Assembly: GCA_025057395.1 (NCBI GenBank)
Contig: JANWXU010000033.1
Coordinates: forward strand, 1-34,868
Origin: Bacteroidia bacterium
Lineage (GTDB): Bacteria > Bacteroidota > Bacteroidia > J057 > JANWXU01
Length of the DNA: 34,868 nucleotides
Direction of reading: 5' to 3'
The number at the start of each line of letters is the position of its first letter. Positions within the stretch are counted from its first letter, which is position 1. Made by a program: the position numbers and the translations under genes. A model generated the notes under the pieces. That model was not told the DNA's origin. It saw only the letters and a program-made list of their open reading frames with translations, and searched no databases. Shown piece after piece: positions 22,235-34,471 of the stretch.

Positions 22235-23059
22235 ATGCCTAGTTTAAGAATTTTGCACCAAGGTAAAATACTAGTTCCCCAATTGAATAATCCTATTAGC
22301 TTGGCTATTCCCTTAAACTTTGATGGCCAGCAGCCTAATCATTTTGATGCTCCTTATGCGATGAGCCATGCTTACCAAACTAACAACTTCATAGGAGATG
22401 TTCAAAAAGGAGGTAGTTGCAATGTAAAAACTATCATTTTTACTCCCCATTGTAATGGCACCCATACAGAGTGTGTGGGGCACATTACTTATGAAAAAGT
22501 TTCGATACATTCGGTATTTCATCTTCCTTTATGCTTAGCACTATTGATTTCAGTTGAGCCCCAAAAAGCAATTACTACGCGGGAACCCTATACTCCTCCC
22601 TTAGCTCCTGAAGATGAGGTAATTACTCTGGAAAAAATCCAAGGAGCAATTGAAAAAGCAGCTAAAGAAAAAGTGAAAGCCTTAATTGTACGAACTTTGC
22701 CTAATTCTGAAGAAAAAAAAGTAAGAAAATATAGTCAGCAGTTGCCCACTTTCTTTACTCGCCCTGCTATTGAAGCCATTAGTCAACTGCCTATTCTACA
22801 TTTACTAGTAGATTTCCCTTCTATAGATAAAATGTACGATGAGGGTAAACTTACGGCACATCATATTTTTTGGGGGGTAGAGGAGGGTGCAAATAGTTTA
22901 AATGTTCAGGTGAAACTGCATCGGACAATAACCGAAATGATTTATGTACCAGAAAATGTACCTGATGGTCTATATCTATTGAATTTGCAGGTTGCCCCCT
23001 TTTTGAGTGATGCTGCTCCCGCTAATCCTATTATTTTTACTTTAAAGTACTTAAAATGA
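22235..23059 (+). CDS. Cyclase-family (kynurenine formamidase-like) hydrolase
   Basis: A 274-aa protein of the metal-dependent cyclase/formamidase family. The family motif HxGTHxDxPxH appears here as NGTHTECVGH, with Glu in place of the usual Asp and without the Pro, around residues 69-78. NFDGQQPNHFDAP near the N-terminus and VRTLPNSEEKK in the middle match positions of the fold. Substrate unknown; kynurenine formamidase activity should not be assumed. ATG 22235 is chosen over TTG 22232. The stop overlaps the ATG of the BadF-type gene (ATGA, 4 bases), a sign of translational coupling. Confidence 0.8.
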   Translation: MPSLRILHQGKILVPQLNNPISLAIPLNFDGQQPNHFDAPYAMSHAYQTNNFIGDVQKGGSCNVKTIIFTPHCNGTHTECVGHITYEKVSIHSVFHLPLCLALLISVEPQKAITTREPYTPPLAPEDEVITLEKIQGAIEKAAKEKVKALIVRTLPNSEEKKVRKYSQQLPTFFTRPAIEAISQLPILHLLVDFPSIDKMYDEGKLTAHHIFWGVEEGANSLNVQVKLHRTITEMIYVPENVPDGLYLLNLQVAPFLSDAAPANPIIFTLKYLK

Positions 23060-23940
23060 ATAATCATTATTTAGTAGTAGATTGTGGTTCTACTAAGGCT
23101 GATTGGCGAGTTTTTGATACTACCCAAGTAGTAGAGGGTGTAGGGTCGGTGGGTTTTAATCCATCTATTGAAAAGCCTGAAGATATAAAGGAAATCATAG
23201 CCTTGCGGGTGGTGCCTAAGTTTCAAAAGTATACTTTAAATCAAATTTTTTTTTATGGAGCGGGCTGTAGCAGTGCTTCTATACAGCATTTTATGCAGAT
23301 ATTGCTGCATGAAATATTTCAGACTCCTGTTTCCCAAATATATGTTGCAGAAGATCTAATGGGAGCTGTATATGCAACAGCGGAGGAAAGGGCAGGAATT
23401 GTAGCTATTTTGAGTACGGGCTCCAATTCTTGTTATTTTGAAAATGGCAAGATAGTAGAACAATGGGGGGGAAACGGCTACTTGTTAGGAGACGAGGGAA
23501 GTGGTGCAGATATGGGTAAAAGACTCCTTAAAGGGCTACTAGATAAAAAGTTTCCTTCCGAAATTGAAAGAGAGCTTCAAAATTATACACAACTGCCCCT
23601 AAAAGAATTAAGGCAGGCAGTTTATGCTCATAAGACTCCTAATCGTTTTTTAGGAAGCCTATCGTACTTTATTTTTCAACTGCAAACCCACCCCACTATA
23701 AAGCAACTTATTCGAAATGCATTTGAGGATTTTTTAAAGACTGCTCTTTTGAACTACAAGCAGCATGCAGAAGTTCCAACTTATTTTATAGGCTCTATTG
23801 CCTGGTATTTTCAAGCTCATCTTCTTGAGGTATTACAAGAATATAATTATCCCCCTCCTCGAAAAATTATTCATAAGCCTATCGAGGAATTAGTTGCTTT
23901 TCACCAAAAGCAATTTCAAATGAATAGAAAATTAGTCTAA
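23056..23940 (+). CDS. BadF/BadG-type ATPase, N-acetylglucosamine kinase-like
   Basis: A 294-aa protein of the ASKHA fold. The phosphate-1 motif is VVDCGSTKADW (7-17), a phosphate-2-like region is ILSTGSNSCYF, and GGNGYLLGDEGSGADMGK follows, a pattern found in bacterial GlcNAc-type kinases. Bacteroidota carry this as a short BadF-family protein, usually annotated N-acetylglucosamine kinase; sugar phosphorylation in amino-sugar or cell-wall recycling is the likely role but unproven. Start ATG overlaps the stop of the cyclase-family gene. Confidence 0.85.
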   Translation: MNNHYLVVDCGSTKADWRVFDTTQVVEGVGSVGFNPSIEKPEDIKEIIALRVVPKFQKYTLNQIFFYGAGCSSASIQHFMQILLHEIFQTPVSQIYVAEDLMGAVYATAEERAGIVAILSTGSNSCYFENGKIVEQWGGNGYLLGDEGSGADMGKRLLKGLLDKKFPSEIERELQNYTQLPLKELRQAVYAHKTPNRFLGSLSYFIFQLQTHPTIKQLIRNAFEDFLKTALLNYKQHAEVPTYFIGSIAWYFQAHLLEVLQEYNYPPPRKIIHKPIEELVAFHQKQFQMNRKLV

Positions 23941-24001
23941 AAGATTACAATATTAGTAGTTTGCTCCTATTTGTTTTTTATGAGGCATAAAAGAATTTAT
24001 A

Positions 24002-24009
24002 TAATTTTG
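24002..24009 (+). promoter_or_regulatory. -7-like element upstream of the 364-aa orphan gene
   Basis: TAATTTTG matches TAnnTTTG fully, 95 bases before ATG 24105. No TTG is found 17-23 bases upstream, so the assignment is weak. A small dyad TTTTATG-AGG-CATAAAA (23976-23992) lies just before it. Confidence 0.3.
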
Positions 24010-24104
24010 AGAATCTAATATTCCCAATCAATAACATTTATAATTTTTTGCCGTAAAACGATTTATTAAATGCAATAAAAACCAAAGTTTATGGATAAAA
24101 TAAT

Positions 24105-25199
24105 ATGAAAGCTATTTATCCGCGTTTAATACAAGTATACACAGACTTATATTTTCTAAAAATCTTTTTTACGGAACTAAGAGATTTAGCAATTACATGT
24201 ACCGATGAGAAAGCAAAAATTTGGCATAATTTTTTCCAATTTTTACTCAAAGGACCTATAGAACTTATTAGCTTACAAACAGGAAGGAAAATACAAAAGA
24301 CGGATATCATTCACTTATTCGACATCCCGGGGTATGCAACAGCACTTCAAGAAGAGCTGAATATTACACCCGAAAATTACGTTTATCCTCCTAACTATGA
24401 TTTTCATTATATAAAAGCTCCTTATGCCATTATATTAGCTAATTGGGAGAATGAGTTAATCAAGCAACTTACTTCAAAGTTTGGAATGCCTTTTATAAAT
24501 CCTGATACTTTTTTTGAAAAATGGAAAAAATTTTCTTTCGAGGGTCTTATCAGAAACATAGACCTAAAAACAGAACCTAAAAAGCCTGGCGAAACTTATA
24601 AGCCCCCCTTTGATGTGTGGGAAGAATTTTCCAATTTCTCTCATACGTGTCATTCTGCTATTATAGTAGATCCTATGATTTCTACTTGGATTTTACAAAC
24701 ATTTGCCTTAAATATTCTCCCTTTAATTAAAAACTTTATCCCTAATGACTATGCTACGCATATAACTTTAATTTATTTAGAAAAAAGTACCCAGAGTAAA
24801 GATAGGCGCATCCATACTGAAGAAATTTATGAATTTTTGAAATCAAAATTTCCGCACTTTGATTTTAGCGTAGTTTGCTTTCTTCCCTATCTTTTTGATG
24901 TGGATACAGAAGTAAGAATTCAACAAATTCTAGAGGAGCGATTTATCGCTACTCCTCTGTTAAGCGTCAGTAGCCCTAATTCTTTGGATTTATACCGTGG
25001 AGGCTATACGGGAGTTTCGTTTATTAACAAAAGTATCTTACTGAATTTTCATCCTATTCTCGATTTTCAGGGTAACTACCTGGAGTCTAGTTTGCAAAAA
25101 CTAGAAAATTATCGAGAACTTATAGAGTTGCGCGAAATTCATCCCGAAAAAGTAATTGTTTTTGGCGAGCCGGAAAAAAATAAACTTCTTTATCTATAA
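24105..25199 (+). CDS. Uncharacterised protein, possible phage-conflict-type C-terminal domain
   Basis: 364 aa, no signal peptide or membrane segment, so cytosolic. No named family recognised. The N-terminal half is helical and aromatic-rich (1-150). The C-terminal half has alternating strand/helix order: AIIVDPMI (185-192), helices to about 210, HITLIYLEKS (219-228), a helix, FSVVCFLPYLFD (254-265), then ERFIATPLLSVSS (278-290) and SLDLYRGG (293-300). From memory this order resembles a C-terminal domain seen in proteins of phage-conflict loci, where an IIVDPYLL strand precedes HDRFIITNYY and GFDLF motifs (PLD-like topology). Here the leading HD is replaced by EE. That resemblance is inference and could be superficial. 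It stands alone between two convergent neighbours; no partner gene is evident. Confidence 0.7.
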   Translation: MKAIYPRLIQVYTDLYFLKIFFTELRDLAITCTDEKAKIWHNFFQFLLKGPIELISLQTGRKIQKTDIIHLFDIPGYATALQEELNITPENYVYPPNYDFHYIKAPYAIILANWENELIKQLTSKFGMPFINPDTFFEKWKKFSFEGLIRNIDLKTEPKKPGETYKPPFDVWEEFSNFSHTCHSAIIVDPMISTWILQTFALNILPLIKNFIPNDYATHITLIYLEKSTQSKDRRIHTEEIYEFLKSKFPHFDFSVVCFLPYLFDVDTEVRIQQILEERFIATPLLSVSSPNSLDLYRGGYTGVSFINKSILLNFHPILDFQGNYLESSLQKLENYRELIELREIHPEKVIVFGEPEKNKLLYL

Positions 25200-25235: not shown

Positions 25236-27395
25236 TTATGCCAAAGCCAGTGCTACACGCTCCTTTTCCCATTCTATTTTATCTATTACCACATCTACTA
25301 CATCTCCCACTTCTAATAATGCCAATGGATTTTTTATAAAACGTCCATTTTTACTCATTTTCGAGACATGTAGAAGGGCATCATTTTTAAGCCCGATATC
25401 AACAAAGGCACCAAAATCTACTACATTTCGAACTGTGCCTTTCAATACCATTCCTTCTTTCAGATCTTCTAATTTTAGTACGTCAGAGCGCAAAATAGGT
25501 CCCGGAATATCTTCCCTGGGGTCTCTACCAGGCTTAGCTAGATTCTGGACAATTAAATCAAAAGTAGGCTCATCTAGGTCTACAATCTGTATAATTTCTT
25601 TTTTCTTTTGGGGAGAAAGAGTTTGGAGAGCTGCACTGAGTAGTTTGAAGTTAGATGGCTCTATTTTAAAAAGTTGTGCTAATTTTTGTACATGTTCATA
25701 AGCTTCGGGGTGGATACTGGTATTATCTAGAGGATTTTTGCCGTTTCGAATTCTTAAAAAGCCGGCACATTGTTCAAAGGTTTTTTCTCCAATGCCTCGA
25801 ACCTCAAGTAATTCTTGGCGGCTTGTGAAAGGGCCATTTTGAGTTCGGTACTTTACAATCTCTTCTGCCAACCGCTGATTTAAGCCCGAAACAAAAGAAA
25901 GAAGCTGCACAGAAGCAGTATTTAGCTCTACACCCACTTCATTTACACATGATTCAACTACTGCTTCTAGTTCACTAGCTAGGAGCGCTTGGTCTACATC
26001 ATGTTGATAAAGACCTACTCCTAATGACTTAGGATCTATTTTGACAAGTTCTGCTAAAGGATCCTGTACGCGGCGAGCAATGCTGATATTACCGCGCTGA
26101 GCTGCATCTAGGTGGGGAAATTCTTTCTTAGCAATTTCCGAGGCTGAATATACTGAAGCTCCTGCCTCGCTTACAATTAAGTATTTTACATTCAGATTAT
26201 TTTTTTGAATAAGATTAGCGATAAAAATTTCAGTTTCGCGGCTTGCTGTTCCGTTGCCTATTGCAATAAGCTTTACTTGGAAACGTTCTATTAAACTGAG
26301 TATAGTTTGCTCGGCTTCATTTACTAGGTTCTTAGGGGGGGTAGGATAAATTACGTCTCCACAAAGGTAAGTGCCTTGCTCATCTACTATTGCTACCTTA
26401 CAGCCAGAAGCGTAACCCGGATCTATGCCCATTACTACCACGCCGGCGATGGGTGGCTGTAAAAGAAGATTACGTAAATTTTGTGAAAATATCTTCACTG
26501 CATGTACGTCAGCGACTTCTGTAAGCATCTTGCGAATTTCTCTTTCTAGCGAGGGCTTAAGGTAGCGGCTGACCGCTAATTCGATAGCTCCACAATATTC
26601 TTGGTAAAAAAGTAAATTTTTTTTCAGGTCTAAAGTTCTCTCAATATAGCTAAGCATTTCTTGCTCGGGTGCGGAGATATTTACTGATAAAATCCCTAGC
26701 TGCTCACCACGGTTAATTGCAAGAATTTGATAAGGCTTAATTTTAGTTAGCTCTATAGTGAAACCGTCGTAAATGTCAAATTTGAAAGCATCTTTATGGT
26801 CAGTTTTCTTCTTAGAGGAGTGAATTTTCCCTTGGTTCTGAAGCACGTTTCTTAAATAAGCTCTGATTTTGGCATTTTCTGTAATTTCTTCTGCTAAAAT
26901 ATATTGGGCTCCCTGTATTGCTTCTTTGCGAGTACATATTTCACCGTTGATGAATGAACGTAGGATTTCATCTTTATTACCACTAGTGGCAGTTTTGAAT
27001 ATTTCTGCTAGGGGGCCTAGGCCTTGTTCTAGAGCTATGCTGGCTTTGGTTTTACGTTTAGGCTTATAGGGAAGATACAGGTCTTCGAGTTCAGTAGCAT
27101 CGTCGCAAAGTTCTATTTGTCTTTTTAATTCAGGGGTAAGTTTTCCCTGATCTTCAATTGTGCGTAGAATTGTATTTTTCCTATCTAAAAGTTCTTTATA
27201 ATATCCAAGTGTTTTTTGAATTTGACGGATTTGATCCTCGTCCATATTTCCTGTTTGTCCCTTTCTATAGCGCGCTATGAAGGGAACAGTACAGCCCATT
27301 TCTAGTAGTTGAACAGTGGCGTTTACTGAAGCATAGGGCAATTGGGTGCGCCGAGCAATATTTTGTACCAGTACTGTTCTTTCTACTTGTAACAT
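25236..27395 (-). CDS. tex: Tex-family RNA-binding transcription accessory protein
   Basis: 719 aa. Domain order is as in Tex: N-terminal helical HTH region (about 1-190, with PFIARYRKGQTGNMDE), YqgF-like RNase-H fold starting at VMGIDPGYASG (321-331), helix-hairpin-helix units (around VSGLNQRLAEEIV and VRGIGEKTFEQC), and a C-terminal S1 RNA-binding domain (about 640-715, KGTVRNVVDFGAFVDIG and DALLHVSKMS). Tex binds nucleic acid and influences transcription and toxin expression in some species; exact role varies. A good promoter lies 42 bases upstream. Confidence 0.95.
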   Translation of the reverse strand: MLQVERTVLVQNIARRTQLPYASVNATVQLLEMGCTVPFIARYRKGQTGNMDEDQIRQIQKTLGYYKELLDRKNTILRTIEDQGKLTPELKRQIELCDDATELEDLYLPYKPKRKTKASIALEQGLGPLAEIFKTATSGNKDEILRSFINGEICTRKEAIQGAQYILAEEITENAKIRAYLRNVLQNQGKIHSSKKKTDHKDAFKFDIYDGFTIELTKIKPYQILAINRGEQLGILSVNISAPEQEMLSYIERTLDLKKNLLFYQEYCGAIELAVSRYLKPSLEREIRKMLTEVADVHAVKIFSQNLRNLLLQPPIAGVVVMGIDPGYASGCKVAIVDEQGTYLCGDVIYPTPPKNLVNEAEQTILSLIERFQVKLIAIGNGTASRETEIFIANLIQKNNLNVKYLIVSEAGASVYSASEIAKKEFPHLDAAQRGNISIARRVQDPLAELVKIDPKSLGVGLYQHDVDQALLASELEAVVESCVNEVGVELNTASVQLLSFVSGLNQRLAEEIVKYRTQNGPFTSRQELLEVRGIGEKTFEQCAGFLRIRNGKNPLDNTSIHPEAYEHVQKLAQLFKIEPSNFKLLSAALQTLSPQKKKEIIQIVDLDEPTFDLIVQNLAKPGRDPREDIPGPILRSDVLKLEDLKEGMVLKGTVRNVVDFGAFVDIGLKNDALLHVSKMSKNGRFIKNPLALLEVGDVVDVVIDKIEWEKERVALALA

Positions 27396-33379: not shown

Positions 33380-34471
33380 TTAATTCAAGTTAATTTGTAC
33401 TCTAGGGGCAATATTGTTTAAGTCGAGTTCTTGTTTCATTAATAATGAAGAACTTTCGATTTGTAGTTGCATTCGTATTTCTGGTGTAAGGTCTTTATGC
33501 TCCTCGGGGTGACTACCCAAATAAGTAACATGATTAAAAAGATCGTAGCAATTCCACCCGGAATCTGCAGTCGAAAGCCATTTAGCACTTTTTTCTAGAA
33601 TATTGGTATCGTAAGCCCTATTGTAGATTTCTATAGGGAAGTATTTATCTGCAATAGGTACTTCTCTTTCTTCTCTTTTAAGGATACTTCGAAAGCGCAA
33701 ATACTCTGCTAAGCTAGCATTTACGGCTTTGAGCTTTTTGACCTGCTCTTGAATCATGCGGCGGAAATCATTTTCAAACTGTAGGTAGTGTCCGATTTTT
33801 CGTGCAATCATATCTGCGCTGAAATTTTGTGTACTAATATTGGCAGTATACTGCCTGTGCTTTACTACGCAACCATTAGTACAAACCAGGCGTTCAAAGG
33901 TATGGTTAATGCGTAAGTCTAAGTCTTTATAGAATAGTTCCATCCCTTTTGTCCACACTTCTAAGTTGCTATCCGTTTCTAGTGGAGAGAAGGTGTGGGT
34001 TTTATTTTGGATTCCAATATCCAGGGTACCATTGTGGTACATGAGTTGATTGCATACTAATTCAGATTCGTAAAGCTCTGCAACTTTTATGAAGCTATCT
34101 ACAATTTGCTCAGGCTCAATGCTAGGTTTATAATACCGATTATACCAAATTTTCGTAATAGTATCTTTGCGGTCATTAAATGTTACAAAAAATTTTTTGC
34201 CTCTTAATGCTCCAAATGCTCCCTTAAAGATGCTACGAGACTGCTCCTCATCCATCTCGCTAAATACGATTTTGGGAAATTTTTGCATCAGGCCTGAGTA
34301 TTGTAAAACGCTTCGTTTGCATTCCGGAGAGGTATGAAAGTTGTCGATAAAAAGGTTACCTTCTTGGTCAAAATAGAAATCATGCAATATTACCTCCTGC
34401 GTAACAGTTTTCTCTGCAACAATTTTTTCTCGAAATCGCTTTAAATCTTCTAATAATTTTTCGTTTACCAT
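33380..34471 (-). CDS. DUF932-like protein
   Basis: 363 aa, cytosolic, no signal peptide. ERLVCTNGCVVKHRQ (193-207) and SGWNCYDLFNHVTYLGSH (304-321) sit in the order and spacing of the DUF932 (phage/plasmid-related protein) signatures CxNG and WxxYNAxTxxxxH. A helical region 225-270 links them. DUF932 proteins are found on phages, plasmids and many bacterial chromosomes; function is not established. Here it is chromosomal, next to a T9SS cargo gene downstream and a PD-(D/E)XK-type fragment upstream. ATG 34471 begins MVNEKLLEDLKRF. No consensus promoter is visible in the 189-base gap upstream. Confidence 0.7.
   Translation of the reverse strand: MVNEKLLEDLKRFREKIVAEKTVTQEVILHDFYFDQEGNLFIDNFHTSPECKRSVLQYSGLMQKFPKIVFSEMDEEQSRSIFKGAFGALRGKKFFVTFNDRKDTITKIWYNRYYKPSIEPEQIVDSFIKVAELYESELVCNQLMYHNGTLDIGIQNKTHTFSPLETDSNLEVWTKGMELFYKDLDLRINHTFERLVCTNGCVVKHRQYTANISTQNFSADMIARKIGHYLQFENDFRRMIQEQVKKLKAVNASLAEYLRFRSILKREEREVPIADKYFPIEIYNRAYDTNILEKSAKWLSTADSGWNCYDLFNHVTYLGSHPEEHKDLTPEIRMQLQIESSSLLMKQELDLNNIAPRVQINLN

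Follow-up and report, generated by a model that had tools for sequence, protein, structure and literature searches.

The window analysed here, a stretch of 34,868 nucleotides taken as a whole, holds on its forward strand an ATG-initiated open reading frame (ORF) encoding a 364-residue protein, P0001. The preliminary description had singled out this ORF for the strings IIVDPMI and SLDLYRGG, which we located at residues 186-192 and 293-300, respectively; ERFIATPLLSVSS occupies residues 278-290. P0001 and its surroundings are laid out as follows.

24105-25199, + strand: P0001, a 364-residue diverged orphan member of an ATPase-partnered MIT_C/PLD-like family (ATG ORF, family profile)
24105-24536, + strand: N-terminal domain of P0001 (residues 1-144), predicted alpha/beta, with homology to the corresponding family region (model, separate profile score)
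24537-25064, + strand: predicted PLD-like (MIT_C-type) domain (residues 145-320), with PLD similarity extending to residue 364 (model, fold comparison)
24660-24680, + strand: IIVDPMI, core strand carrying the family's near-invariant Asp189 (family alignment)
24933-24995, + strand: degenerate HKD-like motif, E277-E278-R279-F-I-A-T-P284-L285 to Y297, where the family has H-D-R-x-I-x-T-N-Y (family alignment)
25077-25196, + strand: C-terminal helix and closing segment (end GEPEKNKLLYL), collinear with the family C terminus (BLASTP, profile, model)
23941-24104, + strand: 164-bp gap upstream of P0001 without an ORF of at least 60 residues, the site where a family ATPase gene would end (ORF list)
23056-23940, + strand: BadF/BcrAD-type protein, upstream neighbour, context and not partner (domain scan of neighbours)
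25236-27395, - strand: Tex-type protein, convergent downstream neighbour, context (domain scan of neighbours)

With a BadF-type kinase gene upstream and a Tex gene downstream, the locus has the housekeeping surroundings, and the lack of an obvious partner gene, previously ascribed to it. The Tex gene is found in 18 of 22 genomes of the order, this one included. At 11 Tex loci of other genomes, examined with flanks of up to about 1.5 kb, eight window proteins (SDR, cyclase, BadF, P0001, ECH, IMPDH, ADI and the product of 33380-34471) all went unmatched at E ≤ 1e-3. The last of these is a second ORF, of 363 residues on the reverse strand, without a Pfam match at E ≤ 0.001; it adjoins a gene whose large product carries a Por secretion tail. 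The codon usage of P0001 (0.136) falls within the range of the 21 window genes scored (0.045-0.171), and its GC content (0.329) is the lowest among them. A promoter scan found two sites, against 6.2 expected by chance, and two terminator-like sites both lie inside the gene.

P0001 is a diverged homologue of a two-gene module subunit

Searched as a single sequence, P0001 gave no matches in Pfam, PADLOC, PHROGs, NCBIfam or PDB sequences, nor in viral contigs, genome contigs, plasmids or phages, and neither 59 other near genomes nor 21 further genomes of the order yielded a relative. Among 395 genomes of the class, 41 besides its own matched at E ≤ 1, all short and weak, the best (E 0.0013) being a short piece in a broken frame. 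No ortholog is known. The protein had thus been aptly called an orphan without a nameable family.

The family came from a motif that the preliminary description had cited, which we turned into a DNA pattern and ran on 295 genomes of the class. There was one match, a 334-residue ORF overlapping an ATPase ORF; further relatives were found in two plasmid records. The first relative, P0002, retrieved nothing from phages, viral contigs or 60 near genomes, and of three other relatives used as queries two yielded no new plasmid record and the third none at all. A profile of three relatives (A2) matched 6 of 395 genomes, two of the six as broken frames, and missed P0001 at E ≤ 0.001. A motif pattern also matched 5 viral-contig and 93 genome-contig stretches; 75 of these 98 encode the family protein (E ≤ 1e-5) and 23 do not. 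In all, 109 non-duplicate loci were examined, 85 with a family protein and 24 without, a count that leaves out the duplicates L058 and L063 and in which L145, a family member by separate comparison, failed to reach the E threshold. Family proteins are encoded second in a two-gene module that occurs mainly among Bacteroidota, and have about 335 residues and a C-terminal MIT_C/PLD-like domain. One Bacteroidales and one Lachnospiraceae bin (L052 and L086) hold near-identical family proteins, through recent transfer or mis-binning.

From these loci we built a 65-member profile that omits P0001. Also left out were the duplicates L021, L024, L058 and L063, the loci L059, L112, L088, L106, L077, L046 and L039, and ORFs truncated by the locus end or of 290 residues or fewer. 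In the family alignment, H, D, R, I, T, N and Y are conserved through the choice of rows, most of which had been retrieved with the motif they form. A fairer sample of conservation is a set of 11 members found by profile (G311, G255, G082; G199, G288, G334; G659, G409, G613, G493, G532). This set excludes G058 and G222 (broken frames, E about 9e-4), G558 and G729 (BrxL-like by eye) and G264 (found by the motif pattern); three of the 11 are rows of profile A4, and all profiles derive from motif-bearing proteins.

The held-out 65-member profile matches P0001 over residues 10-362 with 59.5 bits (E 2.3e-16, Z=10000); the highest score among 5000 shuffles is 9.5 bits. Among fetched ORFs outside the family, two motif-only matches reached 17.7 and 12.2 bits and the others listed at most 6.8. 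Both parts of the chain also score separately: residues 1-150 gave 20.7 bits (7.6 for the best of 2000 shuffles) and residues 151-364 gave 39.1 bits (10.5 for the best of 2000), the tail alone (306-364) having no score of note at 1.8 bits. BLASTP between P0001 and the first relative found gave nothing beyond short pieces, of which the two best (E 0.002 and 0.03) align collinearly at both ends. These computations show P0001 to be homologous over its full length, if far diverged, to the second subunit of a two-gene ATPase module. Its identity to any family member is at most about 22%, and in a maximum-likelihood tree of 74 rows it is one among many long branches (1.97 changes per column), weakly placed with support of 34/78. 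The family profile finds one member in its own genome, P0001 itself.

Predicted fold and putative active site

A model of P0001 built with 64 aligned sequences is confident (pLDDT 83.8, pTM 0.86); the single-sequence model had pLDDT 37.0 and pTM 0.29. Residues 145-364 of the model match a Streptomyces PLD with Z 12.1 (195 aligned, r.m.s.d. 3.5 Å), and the model matches human MITD1 (2ymb_D) with Z 10.8 over 140 residues (r.m.s.d. 3.2 Å, 12% identity). NucT (Z 9.2) and BfiI (Z 8.1) follow, mostly from residue ~145 on. In this comparison, which probed mostly residues 141-364, Z scores of 7 to 8 are common without kinship; it is therefore the top rows that carry weight. In Foldseek, phospholipase D-family chains fill all of the first 25 PDB rows (best E 1.9e-3), with no match at E ≤ 0.001, and a viral fold library likewise gave none at that threshold. 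As modelled, P0001 would thus have both the alpha/beta fold of the PLD superfamily and that of the MITD1 C-terminal domain. The proposal of a PLD-like C-terminal domain is borne out by this prediction, and a fold unrelated to PLD, named beforehand as the outcome that would speak against it, did not appear.

Sequence comparison independently leads to MITD1 through the family. The family profile finds MITD1 (4a5z) among PDB sequences at E 5.4e-4, with HDR aligned on HDR, and Pfam MIT_C (PF16565) matches 14 of 66 family members at E ≤ 0.1 (best 2.2e-9); it matches neither P0001 nor anything else in its genome at E ≤ 0.1. For the N-terminal domain, a search with 24 N-terminal segments returned no consistent Pfam or PDB relative. 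Its opening Y-x-D strand had raised the thought of a PIN-like domain, for which the segment searches brought no support.

PLD enzymes carry an HxKxxxxD catalytic motif, in which the His acts as the nucleophile; a phosphohistidine intermediate of this chemistry is reportedly named in the title of one study. The family motif, H-x-R-x4-N/D, has the same spacing. It resembles the PLD HKD motif, and spacing, predicted fold and a published BrxL case make the two plausibly equivalent. In that case, as described in PMC12839542, BrxL proteins with a C-terminal HKD-type domain have a K-to-R 'HRD' motif that is thought to keep activity. Two loci of our own collection (L143 and L144, from G558 and G729) encode an AAA-type ORF, BrxL-like by eye, that ends in an MIT_C/HKD-type domain with HDREIRID (HxRxxxxD), like the BrxL-HKD fusions presented in PMC12839542.

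P0001 departs from both motifs. It reads E277, R279 and P284, that is E-x-R-x4-P in place of the family's H-x-R-x4-N/D and ExRxxxxP in place of HxKxxxxD. In the PLD superfamily an active site takes two motifs, supplied by a repeat or a dimer; here each chain has one. E277-E278 stand where the motif cited there has HD, just as the preliminary description had stated, and its suspicion of an altered active site is upheld. Of the 11 profile-found members, 10 have H and one (L139) has K at the position of E277, all 11 have R at that of R279, and 10 have N or D, and L134 has S, at that of P284. P0001 is the only one of these 12 proteins without both the H and the N/D, and the only one without an ATPase. 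Altogether five near-invariant positions are altered (277, 278, 284, 285 and 291), four of them within the fetch motif. The near-invariant core of W172, D189, N203 and R279 is kept in full; across the 11 profile-found members these residues occur in 10/11, 11/11, 7/11 and 11/11, respectively. The exceptional protein with K at the His column, L139:1474-2514 (G659), reads GHKDRFIITNY, with a His just before, and keeps its adjacent ATPase.

The partner ATPase in the family and in this genome

An ATPase gene lies directly upstream of the family gene, on the same strand, in 71 of 72 testable loci, those with at least 300 bp upstream; 13 further loci are too short. The gap between the two genes is -4 to +8 bp in 59 of the 71, and the exception, L077, holds a 159-residue fragment. 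Twenty partners from these loci supplied the ATPase profile, and some of the 72 loci are close kin (several are from Flammeovirga). All 11 profile-found members other than P0001 have the ATPase directly upstream. The P-loop, EEPE..LHP and ETHSEY residues are invariant across the 20 aligned partners, and all five full-length partners scanned match AAA_15 and AAA_21, two of them also DUF3696. The partner is thus an ABC-type ATPase of the AAA_15/AAA_21 kind that carries EEPExNLHP and ETHSEY. For the two partners scanned against PADLOC, the best match is NsnB (6.8e-27, for a partial ORF, and 6e-37), with AriA at 8.3e-12 and 2.3e-30.

For the second protein, no PADLOC 2.0.0 model matches more than 2 of 66 family members: two match NsnC weakly (best 8.2e-4) and two match BrxL (best 3.5e-7). 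We found no description of the ATPase plus MIT_C pair in the open-access literature searched; a 2025 Menshen paper outside it may cover related NsnC proteins.

The cited motif had been associated with conflict loci. Its carriers do lie directly behind AAA ATPases resembling AriA and NsnB, a context consistent with that association, and homologues are not confined to a housekeeping neighbourhood, the other outcome named as speaking against the proposal. A survey of neighbouring restriction genes found an HsdM-like gene in 18 of 85 family loci and an HsdR-like gene in 9 of 85, counted without a random-locus control. Such restriction-gene neighbours suggest a conflict setting for the module and are no proof of defence. 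On two plasmids (L022 and L023; NZ_CP010055.1 and NZ_CP091789.1, from Hymenobacter and Prevotella) the pair stands directly before a type I restriction-modification operon. A contig from a viral collection (L031, IMGVR_UViG_3300005144_000001) holds the ATPase and PLD-like pair with an HsdM-like gene.

P0001 has no ATPase gene directly upstream, its neighbour there being BadF-type. Elsewhere in its own assembly (4.08 Mb, 96% complete) the partner-ATPase profile finds three weak matches: a 361-residue ORF on contig C22 (3.9e-6), a protein on C240 that is SMC-like by eye, read in part (7.1e-6), and a 436-residue ORF on C155 (0.0067). ETHSEY is present in neither the C22 nor the C155 protein, nor in the part of the C240 protein read. 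The NsnB model has 11 matches in this genome, the C22 protein at 6.6e-16, and is non-specific, because it also matches in 14 of 14 control genomes. A clear relative of the cognate ATPase thus appears to be absent from the genome searched.

Possible roles of P0001 and comparison with known systems

By analogy with PARIS, the ATPase of the family would keep its effector inactive, sense an invader and then free the effector. A PLD-like domain with H-x-R-x4-N/D would stand in place of Toprim and cleave a phosphodiester, probably in nucleic acid. In P0001 the His (now E277), the N/D (now P284) and the ATPase would all have been lost, leaving a stable, non-catalytic protein that may still hold a phosphate-rich ligand via R279. 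Because the His and N/D are lost and the ATPase is absent, P0001 is most likely no longer a phosphodiesterase. An unselected 364-codon frame with its base composition would have a chance near 1e-12, a crude bound, of holding no stop, so that coding, and with it probably a folded product, was retained over most of the divergence. Our preferred reading, to which we give a probability of about 0.7, is that P0001 is a far-diverged PLD-type relative, the second subunit of a PARIS/Menshen-like module, which lost its partner and probable catalytic His, is still open and foldable, and most likely persists without catalysis, as a relict or a binding protein put to new use. The single-gene defence function once suggested for it finds no support: the unit of the family is a pair, and P0001 has neither the partner nor the probable catalytic residues.

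P0001 could also be a recently dead copy, with no present function, that has gathered no stops yet. The altered near-invariant positions, the absent partner and the lack of relatives in the 59 near and 21 order genomes would suit such a fate; the intact frame, window-typical codon usage, confident whole-chain model and kept core residues speak against it, and we hold it to be unlikely. Only a late death would fit, because a neutral frame would not have survived a branch of 1.97 changes per column. Equally doubtful is a more elaborate scheme, in which the ATPase and MIT_C/PLD-like pair would be a distinct PARIS/Menshen-like immune module, mostly of Bacteroidota, with an effector domain of common origin with human MITD1, and P0001 a domesticated, catalytically dead and partner-free decoy or inhibitor that occupies incoming ATPases or phage triggers.

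It seems improbable that P0001 is still a working defence subunit served by an ATPase in trans, such as the lone AAA-type protein on C22. The three ABC-type proteins on C22, C240 and C155 do match the partner profile weakly, and the C22 protein matches NsnB at 6.6e-16, but ETHSEY, invariant across the 20 aligned partners, is missing from the C22 and C155 proteins, the C240 protein looks SMC-like in the part read and the NsnB model matches all 14 control genomes. Moreover, the motif of P0001 is lost, and 71 of the 72 testable family loci have the partner as immediate neighbour. We give still less credence to an active stand-alone enzyme of altered chemistry, with E277 and R279 replacing His and Arg: the frame is intact, Trp172, Asp189, Asn203 and Arg279 are kept and L139, which retains its ATPase, too has no His at that column (K, with His just before), but the PLD nucleophile is a His and P0001 is changed at both the His and the N/D positions. 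Finally, that the resemblance to the family arose by chance, as the short BLASTP pieces (best E 0.002) and the failure of the three-row profile A2 might suggest, we judge refuted by the held-out profile (59.5 bits, where 5000 shuffles reach no more than 9.5 and fetched non-family ORFs no more than 17.7), the separate matches of both parts and the concordant PLD fold.

On the preferred reading, of a partner-free and probably non-catalytic relative, an orphan gains a family and a fold where single-sequence searches failed. The work also exposes a two-gene module of ATPase and PLD-like protein that is nameless in the libraries used. If that module is defensive, a PLD-type effector joins the PARIS/Menshen style of immunity, and P0001 raises the question of what a bacterium keeps once such a pair loses its sensor and active site.

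Among named systems, BREX offers BrxL with a C-terminal HKD-type domain, and 2 of 66 family members match the PADLOC BrxL model (best 3.5e-7). There the HKD-type domain is fused to the BrxL ATPase; P0001, by contrast, carries an N-terminal domain of its own and lacks HRD. Menshen (NsnA, NsnB, NsnC) is approached through the two scanned partner ATPases, which match NsnB best, and the weak NsnC matches of 2 of 66 members; P0001 itself matches no Menshen or other PADLOC model, and the neighbours scanned are other genes. With PARIS, an AriA ATPase plus an AriB Toprim tRNase, the family shares a two-gene layout, and one partner ATPase matches AriA at 2.3e-30. In the account given in PMC12409363, an AriA hexamer sequesters AriB and a phage protein triggers its release. 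The family's second protein is PLD-like whereas that of PARIS is Toprim, and P0001, with neither a PADLOC match nor an ATPase neighbour, is not a PARIS locus in the sense of AriA plus AriB.

The MITD1 C-terminal domain (PF16565; PDB 2ymb, 4a5z) is a compact fold match of the P0001 model, and the family profile places HDR on HDR. MITD1, according to PMC9477494, is a eukaryotic ESCRT-III-binding protein with an MIT domain; P0001 differs from it in having no HD and no Pfam MIT_C score. The closest likeness is to the unnamed two-gene module itself, as on the Hymenobacter sp. DG25B plasmid NZ_CP010055.1. P0001 stands apart there in having no adjoining ATPase, neither His277 nor N/D at 284, and a place between housekeeping-type genes, but it is homologous in both parts, of similar length, has the same PLD-like domain and keeps W172, D189, N203 and R279.
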